From positions 1 through 22,890 of IMG/VR virus record IMGVR_UViG_3300037264_002542: DNA of 22,890 bases; one strand, given 5' to 3'. The number at the start of each line of letters is the position of its first letter. Positions within the stretch are counted from its first letter, which is position 1. The translations under genes and the position numbers were made by a program. A model generated the notes under the pieces. The model did not search any database. It was not told where the DNA came from and was given only the letters and a program-made list of their open reading frames with translations. Positions 3,147 to 20,933 of the stretch are shown in pieces. Origin of the DNA: a virus.

Positions 3147-4262
3147 ATGAATAAAACATATCCCATTCTCTATAGTCGTGATTCCAAAGGTAAAATTAGA
3201 ATTTGGGAAATGGAGCAAAATAATGAAAGGTATAGGACAATTTCTGGATTGGAGGATGGGGAGAAAGTAACTAGTGAGTGGAGTATTGCGACCGCTAAAA
3301 ATACTGGAAAATCTAATGAAACATCTGACATAGAACAGGCTACTGCTGAAATTGAATATAAATATAAAAAACAATTGAAATCTGATTATTTTGAAGATAT
3401 TAAAGATATAGACCAAATAAGATTTATTCAACCGATGCTTGCCAAGGGATTTTTAGATAGGTTGGACAAAATAGTATATCCAGTTATCGTAGATATTAAA
3501 TATAATGGTGGACGAATCATCACTCAAAAATCTGGACAATTCAGCCGGAAGGGAGAGAAATATCAAAGCGTGCCACATTTATATGAATCTGTAGAATTCT
3601 TATTTAAAAAACATGCCACTTTATTTTTAGACGGGGAAGGATATAATCATGACTACCGATTTAAATTAAATGAGATAATGAAACTGTTAAGAAAAACAGT
3701 TCACATTACAAATGATGATTTAAGAGATAGTAAAAACAGGATACAATATTATGTTTATGATGGTTATGGGTGGGACAATATAAATAAAGAAACAAAACAA
3801 TTTGAAAGGCGAGCGGCTTTAATTAAATTATTAAAAGATATTCCTTATATTATTCCGGTTAAAGGTAAGATAGCAGAAAATGAAAAAGATGTTTGGAAAA
3901 TTTATGAAGAATATACCAGTGAAGGATATGAGGGAGCAATTGTAAGGCTGGATGAACCTTATCAACATAAAAGAAGTTCTGCTTTATTAAAATTAAAACC
4001 AGAAAATGATTCAGAAGGAATTATCCAAGATATTTTAGAGGGTGAAGGAAATTGGTCAAAAACTGGAAAGGTTATTGTATTAAAATGGAAGGATAAGATA
4101 TTTAACGCAACTTTTAAAGGGACTTATGAAGAAGCAGCCCAATTCTTAAAAGATAAAAATAAATGGGTTAATAAAGAAGTGACATTTCTCTATAATGGAT
4201 TAACTGGATTGGGTGTTCCAAATTTTGCTAGAGTAGATATAAATAATTGTATAAAAAAATAA
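3147..4262 (+). CDS. ATP-dependent DNA ligase with N-terminal WGR-like domain
   Basis: A 371-residue nick-sealing ligase of the nucleotidyltransferase superfamily. The N-terminal 60 residues (LYSRDSKGKIRIWEMEQ, then YRTISG and VTSEW) form the small WGR-like domain common on phage ligases. QPMLAKGF leads into the adenylation domain. Motif I is DIKYNGGR, with Lys118 as the probable AMP-accepting residue; the usual KxDG Asp is Asn. Later motifs are LFLDGEGY (motif III), EGYEGAIVR (motif IV) and ALLKLKP (motif V), followed by an OB-fold domain ending LTGLGVPNFARV. I chose ATG 3147, one base after the upstream stop and behind a weak GAGAAAG. An in-frame ATG at 3132 would add five residues and overlap the upstream gene. 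The family assignment is secure. Confidence 0.9.
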   Translation: MNKTYPILYSRDSKGKIRIWEMEQNNERYRTISGLEDGEKVTSEWSIATAKNTGKSNETSDIEQATAEIEYKYKKQLKSDYFEDIKDIDQIRFIQPMLAKGFLDRLDKIVYPVIVDIKYNGGRIITQKSGQFSRKGEKYQSVPHLYESVEFLFKKHATLFLDGEGYNHDYRFKLNEIMKLLRKTVHITNDDLRDSKNRIQYYVYDGYGWDNINKETKQFERRAALIKLLKDIPYIIPVKGKIAENEKDVWKIYEEYTSEGYEGAIVRLDEPYQHKRSSALLKLKPENDSEGIIQDILEGEGNWSKTGKVIVLKWKDKIFNATFKGTYEEAAQFLKDKNKWVNKEVTFLYNGLTGLGVPNFARVDINNCIKK

Positions 4263-12992: not shown

Positions 12993-13627
12993 ATTCAGAT
13001 TTATTAAAATATAACTGGAAAGAAAAAACCTTTGTAGTTTTAGATTGTGAAAGCAACGGATTGCATCTTTTTTATACTCTACCCTTTAATATAGGAATTC
13101 AAGTTTATAAAAATGGAGAATTAACAGAAAATCATGATTTATATCTTAAATGGCCCAACTATCAAATTCGACCCGAAATTGCTAAATTTACCCATTATGA
13201 TGCGGCCAAAATAGAAAGAGAAGGAATCGAACCAAAAAAAGCATTTGAAATATTAAAATATTATTTAGACAATCCAAATATCTATTTTATTGGTAATAAT
13301 CTTCTTAATTACGATTGTATGATATTTAAAAATTCTCCCCAATTTGTTGGAGTTGATATAAGTTATCAGTGGTTGAATAGAACTTATGATAATAATGCTA
13401 TTTTTAAGGGTTACAAACTTGGATTAAAACCTGATTATGATAATTTTTTAGCTTGGCAATTTAGTATGAATTCTATAGTTAAAAAAGGACTTAAATCAAG
13501 ATTACAATTTGCTTGCAAAGAATTTGGAATAGAGTATATTGAAGAAGATGCCCATTCTGCTGCATATGATTGTAAAAAATCATATCAAGTTTTTACAGAA
13601 TTAATTAAAAAAATAGATGTTAAATAA
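12989..13627 (+). CDS. DnaQ-like 3'-5' exonuclease with apparent ATA start
   Basis: About 212 residues of DEDDh-type exonuclease: Exo I VVLDCESNGL (Asp19, Glu21), Exo II NNLLNYDCMIF (Asp109) and Exo III HSAAYDC (His189, Asp194). It would proofread for the polymerase encoded next (10-base overlap). In frame upstream of the first TTG (13061) there is no ATG, GTG, TTG or CTG, yet Exo I lies there, so a start at 13061 would delete the catalytic DxE. The frame is open back to 12977. AGGAG at 12975-12979 points to ATC 12986 or ATA 12989. ATA overlaps the upstream stop as ATAA, resembling the ATGA overlaps elsewhere; I use 12989. Alternatives are a -1 frameshift from the homing endonuclease gene or a base error. 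Confidence 0.75.
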   Translation: MNSDLLKYNWKEKTFVVLDCESNGLHLFYTLPFNIGIQVYKNGELTENHDLYLKWPNYQIRPEIAKFTHYDAAKIEREGIEPKKAFEILKYYLDNPNIYFIGNNLLNYDCMIFKNSPQFVGVDISYQWLNRTYDNNAIFKGYKLGLKPDYDNFLAWQFSMNSIVKKGLKSRLQFACKEFGIEYIEEDAHSAAYDCKKSYQVFTELIKKIDVK

Positions 13628-16600
13628 TTTTACCACATACGATTTACCCAAATTTGGTTATATCAAAATTCCCAAATTTACAATTCCAGATGAAGATAGG
13701 AAAAATCTAAATTTATCTTCCAAATGTAATTCTGAAGAATATCTTTTGGCTTTAGCAAAAGATGGATTTAATAAGAAATTGGAATCAGGAAAAATTCCAA
13801 AAGATAAAAAACATACCTATTGGGAGCGAATTAGTAATGAATTAGAAGAAATAAATAAACTTCTTTTTACTGATTATATATTGCTTGTTTATCATATTAT
13901 TAAGTTTTGTGATAAAAATGGTATATTAAATTCTCCGGGAAGAGGGTCGTGCGGAGGTTCTTTACTTCTTTATGTCTTAGGCGTTGTAAAAATTGACGCA
14001 CTAAAACACAATCTTCTTTTTGAAAGGTTTATTGCTGGTGGACGAACAGAAATTAAAGAAATCAATGGAGAAAAATATATTAAATCGGAAAATTTACCAG
14101 ATGTAGATTTGGATTCAGATAGAGAATTAAAATACAAAATTAATGAATTTATTACCTCTCAATTTCCAAATAGAACATGTCAAATTAAAACAGTGGGAAC
14201 ATTACAAGGAAAATCAGTTATAAAAGAAGTATTAAAATGTTATGAAGAATATAATGAAGAAGATGCCAAAGAAATCAGTGATTTAATTGAAACCAGATTT
14301 GGTAAAGTAGAACAGATTACCAATGCTATATCTGATGACCCAGAAAAAGAAAATAAAAAATTTAAAGAATGGGCAAAAAATCATCTTGATACCGTTAAAA
14401 TTAGCTGTCAATTAAATACATTAATAAAAAATACTTCAGTTCATGCTTCAGGAATTATTTTATGTGAAGAAGAACTAAATAATAGTATTCCATTAGAATT
14501 ATCCTCAACCAGAGAACCAGTTATTTCTTATGATATGGAAGGGGCACAATGTTTTGGTGTTAAATTAGATAATTTGGGATTAAAAAATCTTACATCAATT
14601 AAAGAATGTCTTGGTTTAGTAAATAAAAAAATGGAAGATATTGATGTAAATGATGAATCTATTTATATTTTTTTAAGGAATAGCGATGATTATCGGGGCA
14701 TTTTTCAAGCTGAAGAAGGATTAGGGAAGATGGTAATGAGGAAATTGCAATGCAAAAATATTGATGATATTGGAATGAGTATAAGTATTGGAAGGCCGGG
14801 TAGCATGAAATTCTTAGATGAAATTATCAATGCAAGAGATGGGGCGGAAATTAGAAAGATTGATGATAGGGTGAAAGATATTCTTTCTCCCACTTATAAT
14901 GTAATTATTTATCAGGAGCAAATTATGGCCCTCGCCAGAAGAATGGCAAATTTTACATCACAAGAATCTGATGGGTTAAGAAAATGTGTTTCAGGAGATA
15001 CAACTTTCATTTCTAAAACAAGAGGAATTATTTCCATTCATTCTTTAATTAAGAATGGATTTAAAGACGATTTATTTCTTGTAATGGATGATAGAGGAAG
15101 ACAATTGTGGAAACCTATTAAAAATATCTGGCTTTCCGGTAACAAAGTGGTAAAAAGAGTTACCACTAGAAACGGTTTAAACATAAAAACTACTGGAGAA
15201 CATCAGTTTCTTACTAATGACTGGTGGAAAGCTAGAAAATATCTAGATATTAATAATGATTATTTGGTATGTGCTAAAGAAATAGAATATGATGGTGAGG
15301 ATAAAATTTCAGTAGATATGGCAATTGTTATCGCTGGTTTATTAACAGAAGGATTCTTTACTGAAACGGGTCAAACTTTTACTAATTTTAATAAATTTGT
15401 TATAGATATATTCTGTCAATCATTTTTTAATGAATTTGGCAAATATCCATCTCTATCTAAAGATGGTCATGTAGCCAGAATAGATAAGGAGTCTAAGGAA
15501 ATAATCCATAAATATCTATCTTATGGTAAATCAGGACAAAAATTTATTCCAGAGATAATGATGGGGATGACTAAGGAAACGACTAGAAAATTCTTATCTT
15601 TTATGTTGACTTGTGAGGGAGGCTGCATAGAACAGGGTAAATTTGAAATATCTTCAAAATCTATTACTATGGCAAACCAGATAAAGTTATTATTGTTGAG
15701 ATTTGGTGTCAGAAGTTGTTTTTTTAGCAAAATCAATCCTAAATACGGAGAATTTTATTATATTAACATTGGTGAGCGAGACTCGCTAGAGCGACTAGTT
15801 TCTGAACTGTCAGTTCTTTTAGAGCCAGATAAATTAAAAAAATTAAATTTGTATATCAAAAACAAGATTGGTAACTGCACTTTAGATATTATTCCGAATA
15901 ATATTACCCAAAAGTTTATTAAACAATATACCGCTGGTAAAGATGTAGATAGGAGTGGGAGCTTATATAAATCAACAGTATCTAGAGATAGATTTTATGA
16001 ATTAGTTTCTTGGACTAATGACCAATATTGGATAGATATTGCGACTGGAAAGCAAGAATACTCATCAATTAAAGATATTTATCGCTCTTATCCAGATATG
16101 GAAGATGTATATGACTTTACAATAGATGAAGAGACTCCATTTATTATTGCCAATGGAATAGTAATACATAATTGTATTGGGAAAAAACTTAAAGATAAAA
16201 TAGTTGAACATAAAGAAAGATTTATAGAAAACTCTCTTAAAAATAAATATGAAGAAGAGTTTGTTTTAGATATGTGGCAAACATTTGAAATGAGTGGAGA
16301 TTATTTATTCAATAAATCACACGGATATCAATATGGCTACCTATCAGCTATTTGTGCTTATCTTAAAGCCAACTATCCAACAGAATATTTTTATTCTTTA
16401 TTAAAAAATGCCAAAAATGAATCTAAACCACAAGAAGAAATATCTTTAATTACTGAAGAATTATCTAGATTTGGAGTTAAATTACTTGGTCCACATATTA
16501 TTAAATCAGATGTTGATTTTAAAATTGAAGATAAAAATAATGTTCGTATGGGATTGGGGAATGTCAAAGGAATTGCAGATAAATCATTAGAAAAACTAAA

Positions 16601-17402
16601 AAATTTCTGTCATGCTTATTCTAATAAATTTGAAATATTTTTGGCTGCAAATGAGTGTGGAATTGGAATTGGTATTTTAGGCAATTTAATTTTGGCGGGC
16701 ACAATGGATGATTATTTAACTGAAACCAGAACTCAGACATGTTTAGAAATGCAAACTTGGAATTTATTAACCGAAAGAGAGCAAAAAAGAGTTTTACAAT
16801 TAGGGGAAGAATATAAATATCATTTAATTAACATAATAAAATATCTCTCTGTTCCACAGGATAGTTCTGATAAACCATTTATAAAAGAAAGCAGATTAGA
16901 AACTATTAGAAGAGATTTTAAACCATATAATAAAATCCATAAACAAAATAGTCAAAATGAAGAATTGTGCCGATTTTGGTTTGAAAAAAGTCTTTTGGGA
17001 TTTTCTTATTCTCATAATCTTGTTGACATTTTAAGAAAAGAATATAATGATATAGTTAGTATTGAGGCGGCAATGGCCGAAATTGATGACGAAAAAGTAA
17101 CAATCGGGGGCGAAATAATTGAAATTCGATCTGGAACAAGTAAAAATAAAAATAAATACATTAAATGTTTAATTACGGACGGTAATAAATCAGTTAATGT
17201 TATGATTATGGAAAGATATTTTGAATCAAATAATGAAAAGAATAAAAATCATAAATTAGAAATAGGAGATATTGTGGTTGCAACTGGACAAAAAAAACCT
17301 GACATTGTTTTCTGTGACCAAATTGTAACACAAAATATTAAAATTATTTCCCGAATTTCTGATTTACCAAAAGAAAAGTTAGAAAATTTTGTCGGTCGCT
17401 GA
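13617..17402 (+). CDS. dnaE-like: Family C DNA polymerase core (DnaE-like) with intein
   Basis: A 1261-residue reading frame: extein residues 1-456 and 853-1261 (865 residues after splicing) flank an intein. The polymerase lacks the PHP domain (separate gene at 11199) and starts near the palm. Palm marks: NSPGRGSCGGSLLLYVLG (the GxGRGSxxGS element) and LPDVDLDSD (161-168), whose Asp164 and Asp166 match the two catalytic Asp of PDFDVDF. SVHASGI and the fingers GIFQAEEGLGKMVMRKL, YNVIIYQEQIMALAR and FNKSHGYQYGYLSAICAYLKANYPTEYF segments match DnaE. The C-terminal OB-fold region (VTIGGEIIEIRSGTSKNKNKY) is present. The ATG overlaps the exonuclease stop. The last codons resemble an attC arm (see findings). 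The spliced length is short for DnaE (about 1160) because the PHP part is split off. Confidence 0.9.
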   Translation: MLNNFTTYDLPKFGYIKIPKFTIPDEDRKNLNLSSKCNSEEYLLALAKDGFNKKLESGKIPKDKKHTYWERISNELEEINKLLFTDYILLVYHIIKFCDKNGILNSPGRGSCGGSLLLYVLGVVKIDALKHNLLFERFIAGGRTEIKEINGEKYIKSENLPDVDLDSDRELKYKINEFITSQFPNRTCQIKTVGTLQGKSVIKEVLKCYEEYNEEDAKEISDLIETRFGKVEQITNAISDDPEKENKKFKEWAKNHLDTVKISCQLNTLIKNTSVHASGIILCEEELNNSIPLELSSTREPVISYDMEGAQCFGVKLDNLGLKNLTSIKECLGLVNKKMEDIDVNDESIYIFLRNSDDYRGIFQAEEGLGKMVMRKLQCKNIDDIGMSISIGRPGSMKFLDEIINARDGAEIRKIDDRVKDILSPTYNVIIYQEQIMALARRMANFTSQESDGLRKCVSGDTTFISKTRGIISIHSLIKNGFKDDLFLVMDDRGRQLWKPIKNIWLSGNKVVKRVTTRNGLNIKTTGEHQFLTNDWWKARKYLDINNDYLVCAKEIEYDGEDKISVDMAIVIAGLLTEGFFTETGQTFTNFNKFVIDIFCQSFFNEFGKYPSLSKDGHVARIDKESKEIIHKYLSYGKSGQKFIPEIMMGMTKETTRKFLSFMLTCEGGCIEQGKFEISSKSITMANQIKLLLLRFGVRSCFFSKINPKYGEFYYINIGERDSLERLVSELSVLLEPDKLKKLNLYIKNKIGNCTLDIIPNNITQKFIKQYTAGKDVDRSGSLYKSTVSRDRFYELVSWTNDQYWIDIATGKQEYSSIKDIYRSYPDMEDVYDFTIDEETPFIIANGIVIHNCIGKKLKDKIVEHKERFIENSLKNKYEEEFVLDMWQTFEMSGDYLFNKSHGYQYGYLSAICAYLKANYPTEYFYSLLKNAKNESKPQEEISLITEELSRFGVKLLGPHIIKSDVDFKIEDKNNVRMGLGNVKGIADKSLEKLKNFCHAYSNKFEIFLAANECGIGIGILGNLILAGTMDDYLTETRTQTCLEMQTWNLLTEREQKRVLQLGEEYKYHLINIIKYLSVPQDSSDKPFIKESRLETIRRDFKPYNKIHKQNSQNEELCRFWFEKSLLGFSYSHNLVDILRKEYNDIVSIEAAMAEIDDEKVTIGGEIIEIRSGTSKNKNKYIKCLITDGNKSVNVMIMERYFESNNEKNKNHKLEIGDIVVATGQKKPDIVFCDQIVTQNIKIISRISDLPKEKLENFVGR
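14985..16172 (+). mobile_element. Intein with LAGLIDADG endonuclease in the polymerase
   Basis: A 396-residue intein, residues 457-852 of the precursor. Block A is CVSGDTTFIS, with Cys1. Block B contains TTGEHQF (the TxxH motif). Endonuclease motifs are IVIAGLLTEGFF and FLSFMLTCEGGC. Block F is VYDFTIDEETPF, and block G is ANGIVIHN, followed by the +1 extein residue Cys. After splicing the extein reads GLRKCIGKKLKDKI, the expected continuous polymerase sequence at this position. All key splicing residues (Cys1, block B His, terminal His-Asn, Cys+1) are present, so it is probably active. The two endonuclease motifs have acidic residues (Glu) compatible with activity. Confidence 0.9.
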
Positions 17403-17641: not shown

Positions 17642-17771
17642 GTCTAACAAGGCGCTGGAGCGAACTGGCCTAGACTTTTGGATTTTTCGTGATTCGGGCG
17701 GTTGAGTATTGTGGGTGTTTCCGACGATTCTGGTAATTTACCGGCCAGTCGCTCAGCTTGGGTCGTTAGGC
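17642..17771 (+). repeat. attC site 1 (130 bp)
   Basis: R'' GTCTAAC; left arm CTGGAGCGAACTGGCC; right arm GGCCAGTCGCTCAGC; R' GTTAGGC. Type A attC, very similar to site 3. The cassette to its left has no identifiable left end. Confidence 0.9.
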
Positions 17772-17812
17772 GTCAACGATCTTCACAATTATATCATTCT
17801 TAGTGTAAAAAA

Positions 17813-17917
17813 TGTAACTTGACGGAAAACACTCTGTTTGCTAGAGGTTAGCTGAAGTTTTTGGTTTAAGGTATCCCGGTAGGACTATCTCCCACAGAGT
17901 AAAACCGTCAAATTACA
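17813..17917 (+). ncRNA. Imperfect long inverted repeat in an ORF-less cassette, candidate structured RNA
   Basis: The cassette between sites 1 and 2 (17766-18119) has no ORF on either strand. It contains a stem: TGTAACTTGACGG pairs with CCGTCAAATTACA with one C/A mismatch. Then AAAAC opposes AAAA as an internal loop, and ACTCTGT pairs with ACAGAGT. This gives 19 pairs in arms of 25 and 24 bases around a 56-base loop. The loop contains a small GCTA/TAGC hairpin. Because DNA is palindromic the strand is not determined. It may be a structured RNA, a small inverted-repeat mobile element, or a regulatory palindrome. Nothing else is seen in the rest of the cassette. Confidence 0.5.
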
Positions 17918-18015
17918 GTCTTACTCTATACAACCTATACCAAAGAATCAAGAGTTGTTCTTATCTTTCTATCAGTAATTATAATTGAATTAGATTATTT
18001 ATTCCAAGACCGGAC

Positions 18016-18125
18016 GCCTAACCATGCGCTCCAGCGAACCGGCGCAAGCTCTTGATGTTCAGAGGGGTTGGACATATTTATCCCCCTGATTTTCCGCGCC
18101 GGTCGCTGAGCTTGGGTCGTTAGGT
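18016..18125 (+). repeat. attC site 2 (110 bp)
   Basis: R'' GCCTAAC; left arm GCTCCAGCGAACCGGCGC; right arm GCGCCGGTCGCTGAGC; R' GTTAGGT. Type B attC, nearly the same sequence as site 5. GACGCCTAAC pairs with the start of its cassette GTTAGGCGTC. Confidence 0.9.
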
Positions 18126-18250
18126 GTCATTGGACGCTCTATGATAAATCCATATTTTTCTAATTCTTCTACACTATTAATAAAAATGCCCGTGAATTTC
18201 TTACCATGAGTTTTTTTATACCATTTCTTGAATTTCTTGTCTGACCACAT
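18059..18250 (-). CDS. Small hypothetical protein, reverse-oriented cassette gene
   Basis: A - strand frame starting at ATG 18248-18250 and reading leftward through the cassette start into attC site 2. The first 41 residues (MWSDKKFKKWYKKTHGKKFT, GIFINSVEELEKYGFIIERP) lie in cassette sequence; the last 22 (MTPNDPSSATGAENQGDKYV) are encoded by the attC and are probably just a tail. It is basic, lacks a membrane segment and belongs to no family I recognise. It diverges from the 18275 gene with a 24-base gap, so the two starts could share a promoter region. A reverse gene inside a cassette needs its own promoter. Confidence 0.4.
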   Translation of the reverse strand: MWSDKKFKKWYKKTHGKKFTGIFINSVEELEKYGFIIERPMTPNDPSSATGAENQGDKYVQPL

Positions 18251-18274
18251 ATATCCTATATTACACTCAATATT

Positions 18275-18589
18275 ATGGAACTACATCGTAATAATCAGTT
18301 GTTTTGTAATGTTTTAAGAGCTTGGAATATCAAAACAGCGAAAGTTAATTCTAAAAGAATAAACATGTTAGGTTCACCAAGTGTAGAGATTCGGAAATAT
18401 TCACATAGAATGATTTGTGACAAGAAACCATTTGTTAAGGATATATTAGGAACAATATTAATTGATGAGAAAGGCACTAAGACTTCCATCGAACCAGTAA
18501 AGATTATTTCTGAGACTAAGGAAGAAGATGGTTCTATTTTATATGAGGTTGAATTTTTAGCTTCAAAGATTATTGATTTTGACACCTAA
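18275..18589 (+). CDS. Hypothetical cassette protein
   Basis: A 104-residue protein starting at ATG and ending TAA inside the R'' box of attC site 3, the expected position for a cassette gene. The sequence is beta-rich (MICDKKPFVKDILGTILIDE, then TSIEPVKIISETKEEDGSI, then YEVEFLASKI), with no signal peptide, membrane helix or cysteine motif. I do not recognise the family. It and the reverse gene at 18059 start back to back within the same cassette. Confidence 0.75.
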   Translation: MELHRNNQLFCNVLRAWNIKTAKVNSKRINMLGSPSVEIRKYSHRMICDKKPFVKDILGTILIDEKGTKTSIEPVKIISETKEEDGSILYEVEFLASKIIDFDT

Positions 18590-18715
18590 CAAGAGCGCTG
18601 GAGCGAACTGGCCTAGGCTTTTGGAGTATTGGGAGATTTTGGTGGGCGGGCGATTTCTGAACTGTTGAACGGTTTTGGTTGTTTTCCGGCCAGTCGCTCA
18701 GCTTGAACGTTAGAC
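18584..18715 (+). repeat. attC site 3 (132 bp)
   Basis: R'' ACCTAAC; left arm CTGGAGCGAACTGGCC; right arm GGCCAGTCGCTCAGC; R' GTTAGAC. Type A. The right part lacks the GGGTC spacer of the others (GCTTGAACGTTAGAC). Confidence 0.9.
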
Positions 18716-18742
18716 TTCCCCACCTACATCACCTATAAAACT

Positions 18743-18946
18743 ATGAAAATTACAGACTATCATGAAAAAGATGGAGATATTGAGTTCTTGGTAGATACCG
18801 AAAAGTTACACGCTATCCACCAACATCTAAGATCCAAAAGACTCAATGCGGGAGCAATTCCTTCAGATACGGATTTTAGTAAGATTACCGTAGGAAATAT
18901 TACACCTGAACAACTGAATCAGGCATTGGAAGACTTCCCAGACTAA
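18743..18946 (+). CDS. Small acidic cassette protein
   Basis: A 67-residue protein starting at ATG 27 bases after attC site 3. It reads MKITDYHEKDGDIEFLVDTE, with HLRSKRLNAGAIP and an acidic end (PEQLNQALEDFPD). No family is recognised. Unlike the other + strand cassette genes, it does not end in the next R'' box: 187 bases remain before site 4, and most of them lie in a - strand frame that overlaps its 3' end by 47 bases. Confidence 0.6.
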   Translation: MKITDYHEKDGDIEFLVDTEKLHAIHQHLRSKRLNAGAIPSDTDFSKITVGNITPEQLNQALEDFPD

Positions 18947-19142
18947 ATCTAATTTGTTGAGTTGGTTTTATTCCACCGTTGTCTTTGATAAGTTTGTTAA
19001 CGGCAAGGGTGTAAAAATCAAGACGAGCAATCAAATCTTTTTCGCCGGTAACTTCATCTATGAATGAGTTTGAATTTATGTCTATTAAATATGCGTGAAG
19101 TTTTTGATTTTCGGGTGGATATTTATCAGGGAAGTCTAACAA
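18900..19142 (-). CDS. Hypothetical cassette protein, reverse-oriented
   Basis: A - strand frame of about 80 residues beginning at TTG (19140-19142) at the R'' end of attC site 4 and stopping inside the 18743 gene. The protein (LDFPDKYPPENQKLHAYLID, then FIDEVTGEKDLIARLDFYTL, then AVNKLIKDNGGIKPTQQI) has ordinary composition and a helix-rich pattern, better than a random shadow. No ATG is available outside the attC; a frame from 19193 would translate attC sequence and is unlikely to be the native start. The convergent overlap means this gene or the + gene may be miscalled. Function unknown. Confidence 0.4.
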   Translation of the reverse strand: MLDFPDKYPPENQKLHAYLIDINSNSFIDEVTGEKDLIARLDFYTLAVNKLIKDNGGIKPTQQIRFSLGSLPMPDSVVQV

Positions 19143-19262
19143 TGCGCTGCACCGAACTGGCTTGAGCGCAGGTGATTTCGATGTCTTTTTCATATCTATG
19201 ATAACTGGTTATCCGACGTTTTTACACTTTTTTCGCCAGTCGGTGAGCTTGGGTCGTTAGGT
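19134..19262 (+). repeat. attC site 4 (129 bp)
   Basis: R'' GTCTAAC; left arm GCACCGAACTGGC; right arm GCCAGTCGGTGAGC; R' GTTAGGT. Type C, resembling site 8 (shared CATATCTATG and TTTTTCGCC segments). The L boxes have compensating changes: CACCGA with TCGGTG in place of CAGCGA with TCGCTG. Confidence 0.9.
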
Positions 19263-19287
19263 GTCATATCGCACGCCCCTGTAAAAT

Positions 19288-19722
19288 ATGGACGAAAAGA
19301 CACTAAAGAAAGCGGCAGCTTGGATGTATAAGAACCGGCATACGGGCTATTGGACTTATCTGATACTGGTAGCTGAAATTTCTGACCATCAAGAGATACG
19401 CAGTTTATCATTGTCCCAGGACGACGCCAGTGAAGTCTTCGCAACCCTAGAAAAAAAAGGATGTTTGAGAAAGGAGGATGGAGAGATAACCATCGGTGGA
19501 GCTTCTTTCCAAAAGTATCGCATTGATCACTCTGCCCTTCGAGAATTAAAAAAGTTTTCAGAGATTCCTTGGTATTACTTTCTTCCTGAATCTTGGATTT
19601 ATTACATTGAGAAGTATTGGGCATGGTTTGTTGTATGTCTTGCGCTGATTATTACCTCATTCTTTCAGGGATTCGTTGGGAAGTTGGGAGAGTGGATTGG
19701 CGAATGTTTGACTGGAAAATGA
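19288..19722 (+). CDS. Cassette protein with winged-helix-like head and one membrane helix
   Basis: A 144-residue protein. Residues 1-85 are charged and helical, with DDASEVFATLEKKGCLRKED followed by GEITIGGASFQKYRI, a pattern like a small winged-helix domain. Near the C-terminus WAWFVVCLALIITSFFQGF is a probable single transmembrane helix, after an aromatic stretch (WYYFLPESWIYYIEKYW). The stop TGA lies just before attC site 5, and the gene follows site 4 closely, as expected for a single-gene cassette. It may couple a regulatory head to the membrane (inference). No family is recognised. Confidence 0.75.
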   Translation: MDEKTLKKAAAWMYKNRHTGYWTYLILVAEISDHQEIRSLSLSQDDASEVFATLEKKGCLRKEDGEITIGGASFQKYRIDHSALRELKKFSEIPWYYFLPESWIYYIEKYWAWFVVCLALIITSFFQGFVGKLGEWIGECLTGK

Positions 19723-19723
19723 C

Positions 19724-19833
19724 ACCTAACCAAGCGCTCCAGCGAACCGGCGCAAGCTCTTGATTTTCAGGAGGTTTAGACATGTTTACCTCTCTCCTTT
19801 TCCGCGCCGGTCGCTGAGCTTGGGTCGTTAGGC
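19724..19833 (+). repeat. attC site 5 (110 bp)
   Basis: R'' ACCTAAC; left arm GCTCCAGCGAACCGGCGC; right arm GCGCCGGTCGCTGAGC; R' GTTAGGC. Type B, near-identical to site 2. ATGACACCTAAC pairs over 12 bases with the start of its cassette, GTTAGGTGTCAT. Confidence 0.9.
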
Positions 19834-19890
19834 GAATTCGGAGCATCTTGTGGACTTGATTGTTTTTCATGTTGCGTATCTTTAATTTGT

Positions 19891-19976
19891 CACAAGACCA
19901 ACCTTGTGAGCGTTGATGGACTGAAGACTTGTCCTAAGCGTGGAGTCGTGCGTTAACACGACTCCCTTTTTATTTT
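19891..19976 (+). ncRNA. Candidate small RNA with intrinsic terminator
   Basis: No protein frame fits here. On the + strand three hairpins follow one another: CACAAG/CTTGTG with a 6-base loop (19891-19908), GGAC/GTCC (19918-19934), and a 9-bp terminator stem with a T run. The start is not defined. Possible -35 TTGATT (19856) and -10 TTTAAT (19881) are 19 bases apart, which is weak. Together they suggest a short RNA transcribed from within the cassette. Confidence 0.35.
19942..19976 (+). terminator. Intrinsic terminator
   Basis: A perfect 9-bp stem, GGAGTCGTG / CACGACTCC, with loop CGTTAA, followed by CTTTTTATTTT. This is the strongest hairpin-plus-T-run in the window. It lies 6 bases upstream of the tRNA-like gene. 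Confidence 0.8.
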
Positions 19977-19982
19977 CGGAGA

Positions 19983-20069
19983 GGTTGGGATTGTTGTTGG
20001 CGGAACTAGGGCGTCTTAAAAACGCCCACCCGTTAACGCGGGTTGAGAGTTCGATTCTCTCCCCAACCG
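19983..20069 (+). tRNA. tRNA-Leu(UAA)-like, class II, atypical D arm and discriminator
   Basis: 87 bases fold as a class II tRNA. Acceptor GGTTGGG/CCCAACC (7 bp); anticodon stem GGCGT/ACGCC around loop CTTAAAA, giving anticodon UAA; variable arm ACCCG/CGGGT with a 6-base loop; T arm GAGAG-TTCGATT-CTCTC. No CCA is encoded. The D arm is odd: at best GTT/AAC with loop GTTGGCGG, lacking the usual GGTAGACGC segment of bacterial tRNA-Leu. Position 73 is G, where bacterial tRNA-Leu has A (G is serine-like). GGAG/CTCC outside the acceptor could extend the stem in the precursor. It lies inside an integron cassette. It may be functional, diverged or decaying. Confidence 0.7.
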
Positions 20070-20091
20070 CTCCTAAATTATATGAAAATCC

Positions 20092-20153
20092 GCCTAACCA
20101 TGCGCTCCAGCGAACCGACGCAAGCTTGGGGTTTTCAGGAGGTTTAGACATGT
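20092..20153 (+). repeat. attC site 6, left half only
   Basis: R'' GCCTAAC and left arm GCTCCAGCGAACCG match type B sites 2 and 5 up to TTTAGACATGT. After 20153 the sequence departs from them, and no right arm or R' box follows. CGCCTAAC still pairs with the start of its cassette (GTTAGGCG), showing the cassette was once complete. Confidence 0.8.
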
Positions 20154-20173
20154 AGAAAAATTATTATGAAAGC

Positions 20174-20350
20174 TTAATGGGACTGGCAAATCATTCCATA
20201 GAGACACGCGGCAAAAACTACAGCAAGATACAGACACAAGAGCCAATCACTCTTTTGAAGGGTCAAGATTGTGCTGAAAACCTTGCCAATATTTGTCTGT
20301 TTATATCTGCATTGGGATTGGTGTTGACGATTTTGATATGAAAAATTGCG
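20174..20350 (-). pseudogene. Reverse-oriented membrane-protein remnant
   Basis: A - strand frame, without start codon in the cassette, ends NIGKVFSTILTLQKSDWLLC, then LYLAVVFAACLYGMICQSH and a stop. DWLLCLYLAVVFAACLYGMI looks like a membrane helix. The longer open frame to 20863 passes through attC 7 and is not a gene. The cassette's expected left end (GTTAGGCCGCAA) is absent because of the deletion that removed half of site 6, so only a fragment remains. On the + strand the same stretch has no convincing gene. Confidence 0.3.
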
Positions 20351-20483
20351 GCCTAACCATACGCTGGAGCGAACCGGAGCATCGTTTTCAGATTTCTGAA
20401 CATCGCTGGCTTCGTTTGCGTTTGGGGATTGGGTTAAGTTTTCGGGTGTTTTTTGCTCCGGTCGCTCAGCTTGGTCGTTAGGC
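20351..20483 (+). repeat. attC site 7 (133 bp)
   Basis: R'' GCCTAAC; left arm GCTGGAGCGAACCGGAGC; right arm GCTCCGGTCGCTCAGC; R' GTTAGGC. Related to type A. The spacer before R' is GGTC instead of GGGTC. Confidence 0.9.
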
Positions 20484-20502
20484 GTTGTCCGTTTTATATT
20501 AT

Positions 20503-20808
20503 ATGGATATCCCAATCTATTTAAGAAAATCCGAAACAGAGATGGTGAAGCTTCATTGTATTGCGGAGTTAATTCAGGAGACAACCAACCACGTAACTTT
20601 CCACGCCCTAGAATATCTCTCAGTTGATTTGCATTCACATTATTATTGTAAGCGTAAAGGAGTAAGGGGGACGCTGGAACTATGGTTGATTGAATTTGTC
20701 GCTGCCACGGAAATGAAGCCGCCATATACTTATATCTCAACATTGACAGAAAAATACAGAGACGTACCAGAGGACTGGGTTGATGATTCTCCCAGTCAGA
20801 ACGCCTAA
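20503..20808 (+). CDS. Hypothetical cassette protein
   Basis: A 101-residue protein (ATG 20503; an in-frame TTG at 20485 would start inside the R' region of site 7 and is less likely). It ends TAA within the R'' box of site 8, the standard cassette layout. It starts MDIPIYLRKSETEMVKLHCI and includes TFHALEYLSVDLHSHYYCKR and an acidic end. There is no signal peptide or membrane helix. Two Cys and several His residues do not form a clear metal motif. Family not recognised. Confidence 0.7.
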   Translation: MDIPIYLRKSETEMVKLHCIAELIQETTNHVTFHALEYLSVDLHSHYYCKRKGVRGTLELWLIEFVAATEMKPPYTYISTLTEKYRDVPEDWVDDSPSQNA

Positions 20809-20933
20809 CCATGCGCTCCAGCGAACCGGCTTGAGCTTTGGTGTTTTCGGTGTTATTACTCATATCTATGGTAACGGGTTGTGCGAAAGATTTACACTAT
20901 TTTTCGCCGGTCGCTGAGCTTGGGTCGTTAGAA
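20803..20933 (+). repeat. attC site 8 (131 bp), last site of the array
   Basis: R'' GCCTAAC; left arm GCTCCAGCGAACCGGC; right arm GCCGGTCGCTGAGC; right end GTTAGAA, which departs from GTTRRRY in its last base and runs into AT-rich phage-like sequence. Type C, like site 4. It marks the right junction. Confidence 0.85.

Follow-up and report, generated by a model that had tools for sequence, protein, structure and literature searches.

Background

The cargo that integron cassettes move is generally taken to be protein genes, and the exceptions that carry RNA are few. Arrays of attC sites without an integron integrase (CALINs) are known from phages, and the cassettes described there carry open reading frames (ORFs), with no mention of tRNA (PMC9892861). 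Among the ORF-less cassettes, sRNA-Xcc1 of Xanthomonas is a trans-acting small RNA, and others act as promoters (PMC6557892). Phage T5 has annotated tRNA-like stable RNAs of unknown function. In addition, a review (PMC7609411), citing Mukai et al. 2017, describes allo-tRNAs with Leu anticodons (for the codons CUC and UUA) that inserted Ser in E. coli. Here, we describe a tRNA-like gene located within an integrase-less attC array of a phage.

An attC array without an integrase in a phage fragment

The window, that is, the whole stretch of DNA analyzed, is the 22,890-base IMG/VR record IMGVR_UViG_3300037264_002542, which has linear ends and a GC content of 29%. In protein family searches, the left 17.5 kb were found to contain phage replication genes, namely, those for an ATP-dependent DNA ligase, a UvsX/RecA-like recombinase, a DnaB-like helicase, an exonuclease, a DNA methyltransferase and an intein-containing alpha chain of DNA polymerase III. 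The intein in the polymerase gene (13617-17402) has a LAGLIDADG domain. Searches of IMG/VR for sister phages via PolIII or RecA found none. The array has the following features.

17642-20933, + strand: attC array without an integron integrase (CALIN), delineated by a core-site/complementarity scan, repeats and bottom-strand folds
17642-17771, 18016-18125, 18584-18715, 19134-19262, 19724-19833, 20351-20483 and 20803-20933, + strand: seven complete attC sites, all in one direction
19724-19833, + strand: attC5, complete, its R' core site being the left border of the tRNA stretch (scan, repeats, fold)
20093-20155, + strand: half attC6, only the R'' and L'' side, ending at the hairpin apex (repeats, fold)
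20177-20341, + strand: 54-aa ORF of the next cassette, in the same attC5-attC7 unit as the tRNA (ORF list)
20351-20483, + strand: attC7, complete, which closes the tRNA-containing excisable unit on the right (scan, fold)

The sites attC1, attC5 and attC7 have complementary R'' and R' core sites, and their bottom strands fold with unpaired bases, with z from -2.63 to -4.06 (-3.83 for attC5). A CALIN is defined by two or more attC sites with no integrase close by; because there are seven attC sites in the window and no integron integrase among the proteins searched in this 22.9-kb fragment, we classify the array as a CALIN. The half attC6 shares 90% identity with attC5 over the first 61 nt, after which the similarity breaks off, and it has no attC-like fold (z 0.30). 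Given this truncation, the tRNA stretch alone is not a complete cassette. Thus, the initial annotation, which described a cassette between attC5 and the half attC6, was correct in recognizing a complete attC5 and a half attC6, but not in treating the DNA between them as a cassette in its own right. The excisable unit between complete sites extends from attC5 to attC7 and takes in the tRNA together with the next cassette, the 54-aa ORF of which has no match in Pfam, PHROG or PADLOC.

The first cassette (17772-18015) contains no notable ORF but a long imperfect hairpin (TTGACGG...CCGTCAA); when the whole cassette is folded, the + strand gives z -0.78, not better than shuffles, and the - strand, z -2.52. 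The attC family of the window recurs in about 50 other IMG/VR contigs and is also present in a Planctomycetaceae genome. One of these virus contigs, L008 (IMGVR_UViG_3300046778_000197), is AT-rich (33% GC) and has two attC of the same family at 3482-4045, making it a second AT-rich phage that carries such cassettes.

A class II tRNA-like gene between attC sites

The following features make up the tRNA-like gene.

19983-20069, + strand: class II tRNA-like gene with the anticodon UAA (20017-20019), G73 as its last base (20069) and no CCA in the DNA (ARAGORN, fold, alignment)
19990-20008, + strand: non-canonical D region with A8, a 3-bp stem GTT/AAC, the 8-nt loop GTTGGCGG and long linkers (fold, ARAGORN)
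20028-20043, + strand: variable arm, 6 bp, loop TAAC (fold, ARAGORN)

The sole tRNA called by ARAGORN in the window is a tRNA-Leu(taa) at 19983-20070 on the + strand; counting G73 (base 20069) as the last base, the gene is 87 nt long. Its minimum free energy structure (z -3.95) is a cloverleaf in which the D arm is weak; it has a 7-bp acceptor stem (GGTTGGG/CCCAACC), a 6-bp anticodon arm with the loop CTTAAAA, and a T arm, GAGAG-TTCGATT-CTCTC, with a 5-bp stem. The four stems comprise 24 base pairs, all Watson-Crick except for one G-U, which speaks against a decaying pseudogene, where such pairs are not expected to be retained. The class II fold, the anticodon UAA, the 7-bp acceptor stem, the variable arm and the T loop TTCGATT had all been recognized in the initial annotation, and ARAGORN and folding recover each of them. 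The same holds for the view that no credible protein gene lies in this stretch: the two ORFs found there, of 71 aa (+ strand) and 89 aa (- strand), both traverse the tRNA and attC and have no family match above the cut-off, and on this ground a protein gene was rejected.

The cloverleaf could also be a chance fold, with no tRNA gene present, or the contig could be a phage-integron chimera created by the assembly. ARAGORN does produce false calls within GC-rich coding sequence, as seen at loci L003 and L093, and the GC content of the array (41.6%) is unlike that of both the left (28.9%) and the right (28.7%) flank. However, the concern over false calls is eased by the lack of such a coding gene in the tRNA stretch, and 20 Mb of random Markov sequence with the dinucleotide content of the array yielded no ARAGORN call. 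Furthermore, a phage-like GC content of 29% is found on either side of the array, and the attC family recurs in other virus contigs, including L008 with its 33% GC. Overall, we consider a chance fold or an assembly artefact very improbable.

Deviations from canonical tRNAs and the Leu/Ser character

Of the core bases checked (U8, A14, G18G19, A21, U33, U54U55C56), the tRNA-like gene has U33, the T-loop TTC and the D-loop GG and lacks U8 and A14; its 3-bp D stem is in a shifted register. The score with the Rfam model RF00005 is below the gathering cut-off of 29 bits, and the tRNA-Leu(UAA) genes of T4 and E. coli score 58-59 bits with the same model. Odd D arms and scores under the Rfam tRNA cut-off also occur in the tRNA-Ser genes annotated in the phages PVP-SE1 and T5, so that neither of these features by itself marks a dead gene. 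The strongest single deviation is the discriminator, which is G73 here; all 11 tRNA-Leu compared, taken from E. coli, phages and one Planctomycetota genome, have A73. The anticodon, UAA, fits tRNA-Leu, but G73, the atypical D arm, the RF00005 score below 29 bits and the upstream terminator leave this assignment, and a role in translation, putative.

The gene might instead encode a serine-type tRNA with a Leu anticodon, resembling the allo-tRNAs, that would be charged by SerRS via G73, G1-C72, G2-C71 and the long variable arm, and would place Ser at UUA. All these tRNA-Ser/allo-tRNA features are present. In a global alignment, the nearest 12 of 37 class II tRNAs are all tRNA-Ser, but the pairwise scores are low (~50-63% identity). 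For the compared tRNA-Ser, automatic end-finding as applied to the tRNA-Leu gave G or T as discriminator, some of the Ts being off-by-one ends. With the tRNA-Sec model RF01852, the gene scores 41.9 bits, within the range of tRNA-Ser (36-54) and above three tRNA-Leu (28-38), and the allo-tRNAs described for E. coli (PMC7609411) provide a precedent. Conversely, the acceptor and T stems are 7/5, not 8/4 or 9/3 as in allo-tRNAs, and the variable arm is separated from the T stem by one base, the same spacing as in the compared tRNA-Leu. A tRNA-Sec was considered as well and rejected: 41.9 bits is below the cut-off of 47 and within the tRNA-Ser range, true tRNA-Sec score 76-78 bits, and the anticodon is UAA rather than UCA.

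Codon usage bears directly on the serine-type reading. The heavy use of TTA in this AT-rich phage, claimed in the initial annotation, was upheld by a codon-usage comparison: in 15 phage genes, TTA accounts for 231 of the 400 Leu codons (57.8%), or 48.7 per 1000 codons, and there are 11 TTA in the 420 codons of the cassette ORFs. In four conserved proteins, the residues found at TTA positions in homologues from other phages are Leu (90 of 238), then Ile, Phe, Val, Ala and Met, and Ser is not among the eight commonest. Because the residues at these positions are Leu and other hydrophobic ones, UUA evidently means Leu for the phage, which argues against a serine-type tRNA; the idea that the phage has recoded UUA as Ser was rejected for the same reason. 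A Leu-charged tRNA could help the phage, and a Ser-charged one would harm it. With 49 UUA per 1000 codons, Ser at UUA would be harmful, so such a tRNA would fit an anti-phage or regulatory device, or else a silent cassette. Taken together, a serine-type tRNA appears improbable to us, albeit less so than an artefact.

Leader, terminator and trailer

Several structures surround the tRNA-like gene.

19889-19941, + strand: structured leader, a hairpin with the loop ACCAAC and a second hairpin (fold)
19942-19976, + strand: strong intrinsic-terminator-like hairpin with a perfect 9-bp stem and the U-rich tail CTTTTTATTTT; it lies 17 nt upstream from the tRNA
19978-19981, + strand: leader GGAG; pairing with the trailer CTCC (20070-20073), with an A-G mismatch in between, makes the acceptor stem longer

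The region 19882-19980 folds with z -4.55, and the structured leader has no Rfam match. The three hairpins at 19889-19976, the terminator included, may form a gene for a small RNA that shares the cassette with the tRNA and stops at the terminator. The sequence CCAACC occurs both in a loop of this segment and in the 3' acceptor strand of the tRNA; complementarity between the upstream hairpin RNA and the tRNA is not above that of shuffles (8%). No promoter-like site was detected on the + strand between attC5 and the tRNA. The upstream terminator, the absent promoter-like site and the pairing between leader and trailer, which would impede maturation at both the 5' and the 3' end, all argue against easy expression and maturation of the tRNA.

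These observations, namely, the upstream terminator and the long paired leader and trailer, as well as the broken attC, the odd D arm, G73 and the Rfam score under the cut-off, are in keeping with a tRNA-like RNA or relic outside translation, be it a stable structured RNA, a decoy for tRNA-cutting nucleases or a captured tRNA whose function is being lost. The annotated tRNA-like stable RNAs of T5 are a precedent. On the other hand, the stems, the anticodon loop and the T loop are intact, and a relic would soon lose them. We regard a role outside translation, or decay, as a real possibility that nevertheless falls short of being our first choice.

Search for relatives and for other RNA cassettes

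Relatives of the tRNA were found neither in exact-pattern scans of GTDB genomes and IMG/VR nor by blastn in phages, plasmids and 294 Planctomycetota genomes; the searches returned only T-arm matches or chance matches to coding sequence. An IMG/VR pattern scan for a T loop adjoining attC gave one match, without a tRNA. The genome profile search misses the tRNA-like RNA even with RF01852, and its negative result with RF00005 is discounted accordingly.

In 51 virus contigs with this attC family, none of the 14 bounded cassettes (42 attC, strict scan) carries a tRNA. Nor is there a tRNA between attC sites in 40 Planctomycetota integron regions, and the few tRNAs near them are chromosomal. The attC scan looks for TAAC/GTTA core sites and passes over other types, which weakens the Planctomycetota survey in particular and makes the survey counts lower bounds on what was examined. 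A literature search brought up no mention of a tRNA cassette. A separate observation concerns a Planctomycetota genome (L141, 458-2590), where ARAGORN places 19 tRNA genes close together within 3 kb. Four of them are tRNA-Leu with lengths of just 73-77 nt, another is a CUA tRNA resembling tRNA-Pyl, and the whole looks like a mobile tRNA array.

A putative UUA-decoding tRNA as integron cargo

The explanation that we tentatively prefer, with a probability somewhat below even, is that a divergent class II tRNA gene of phage type became integron cargo and now resides in the integrase-less array of a phage, where its product would be a putative UUA-decoding, Leu-charged tRNA. Counted in its favor are the ARAGORN call together with the lack of calls in random sequence, the intact stems, the use of TTA, the Leu-like spacing of the variable arm and the phage tRNA-Ser with odd D arms; counted against it are G73, the D arm, the RF00005 score, the terminator without a promoter, the leader-trailer pairing and the lack of a homologue. 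Under this explanation, a transcript of the array would read through the terminator to reach the tRNA, its ends would be trimmed, and a host enzyme would add CCA. Carrying leucine in spite of its G73, the mature tRNA would then decode UUA while phage proteins are made. Such help in decoding UUA is possible, yet G73, the D arm and the terminator weaken the case for it. Because attC6 is broken, the tRNA could move only along with the next cassette, from attC5 to attC7.

If cassettes can carry tRNAs, the capacity to read codons would itself be among the things that integrons mobilize. Leucine charging would make this a new way for phages to acquire tRNAs; with serine charging, the cassette would instead bring a device for misreading the Leu codon that AT-rich phages use most. 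The broader scenario, in which integrons carry a tRNA gene between phage and bacteria, shuffling either decoding capacity or a missense tRNA for Ser at UUA, is speculative and, in our judgement, rather unlikely.

Comparison with known systems

The initial annotation considered an RNA cassette unusual. This is the case insofar as the other cassettes surveyed have no tRNA, but the ORF-less sRNA-Xcc1 cassette (PMC6557892) is a precedent for RNA. RNA-only cassettes are thus not new as such, whereas tRNA-like cargo was found nowhere else in our searches. Like sRNA-Xcc1, the cargo is RNA without a protein, but sRNA-Xcc1 does not have a tRNA fold (PMC6557892). With the allo-tRNAs (PMC7609411), the gene shares the long variable arm, G73 and a non-Ser anticodon; their acceptor and T stems are 8/4 or 9/3, in contrast to 7/5 here. 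The tRNA genes of T4, T5, PVP-SE1 and KVP40 are similarly phage-borne, and odd D arms occur in phage tRNA-Ser, but those genes sit in tRNA clusters rather than between attC sites. Finally, as in the phage CALINs (PMC9892861), attC sites and cassettes without an integrase lie in a phage genome in the same direction, and the difference is in the cargo, which is tRNA-like here and consists of ORFs there.
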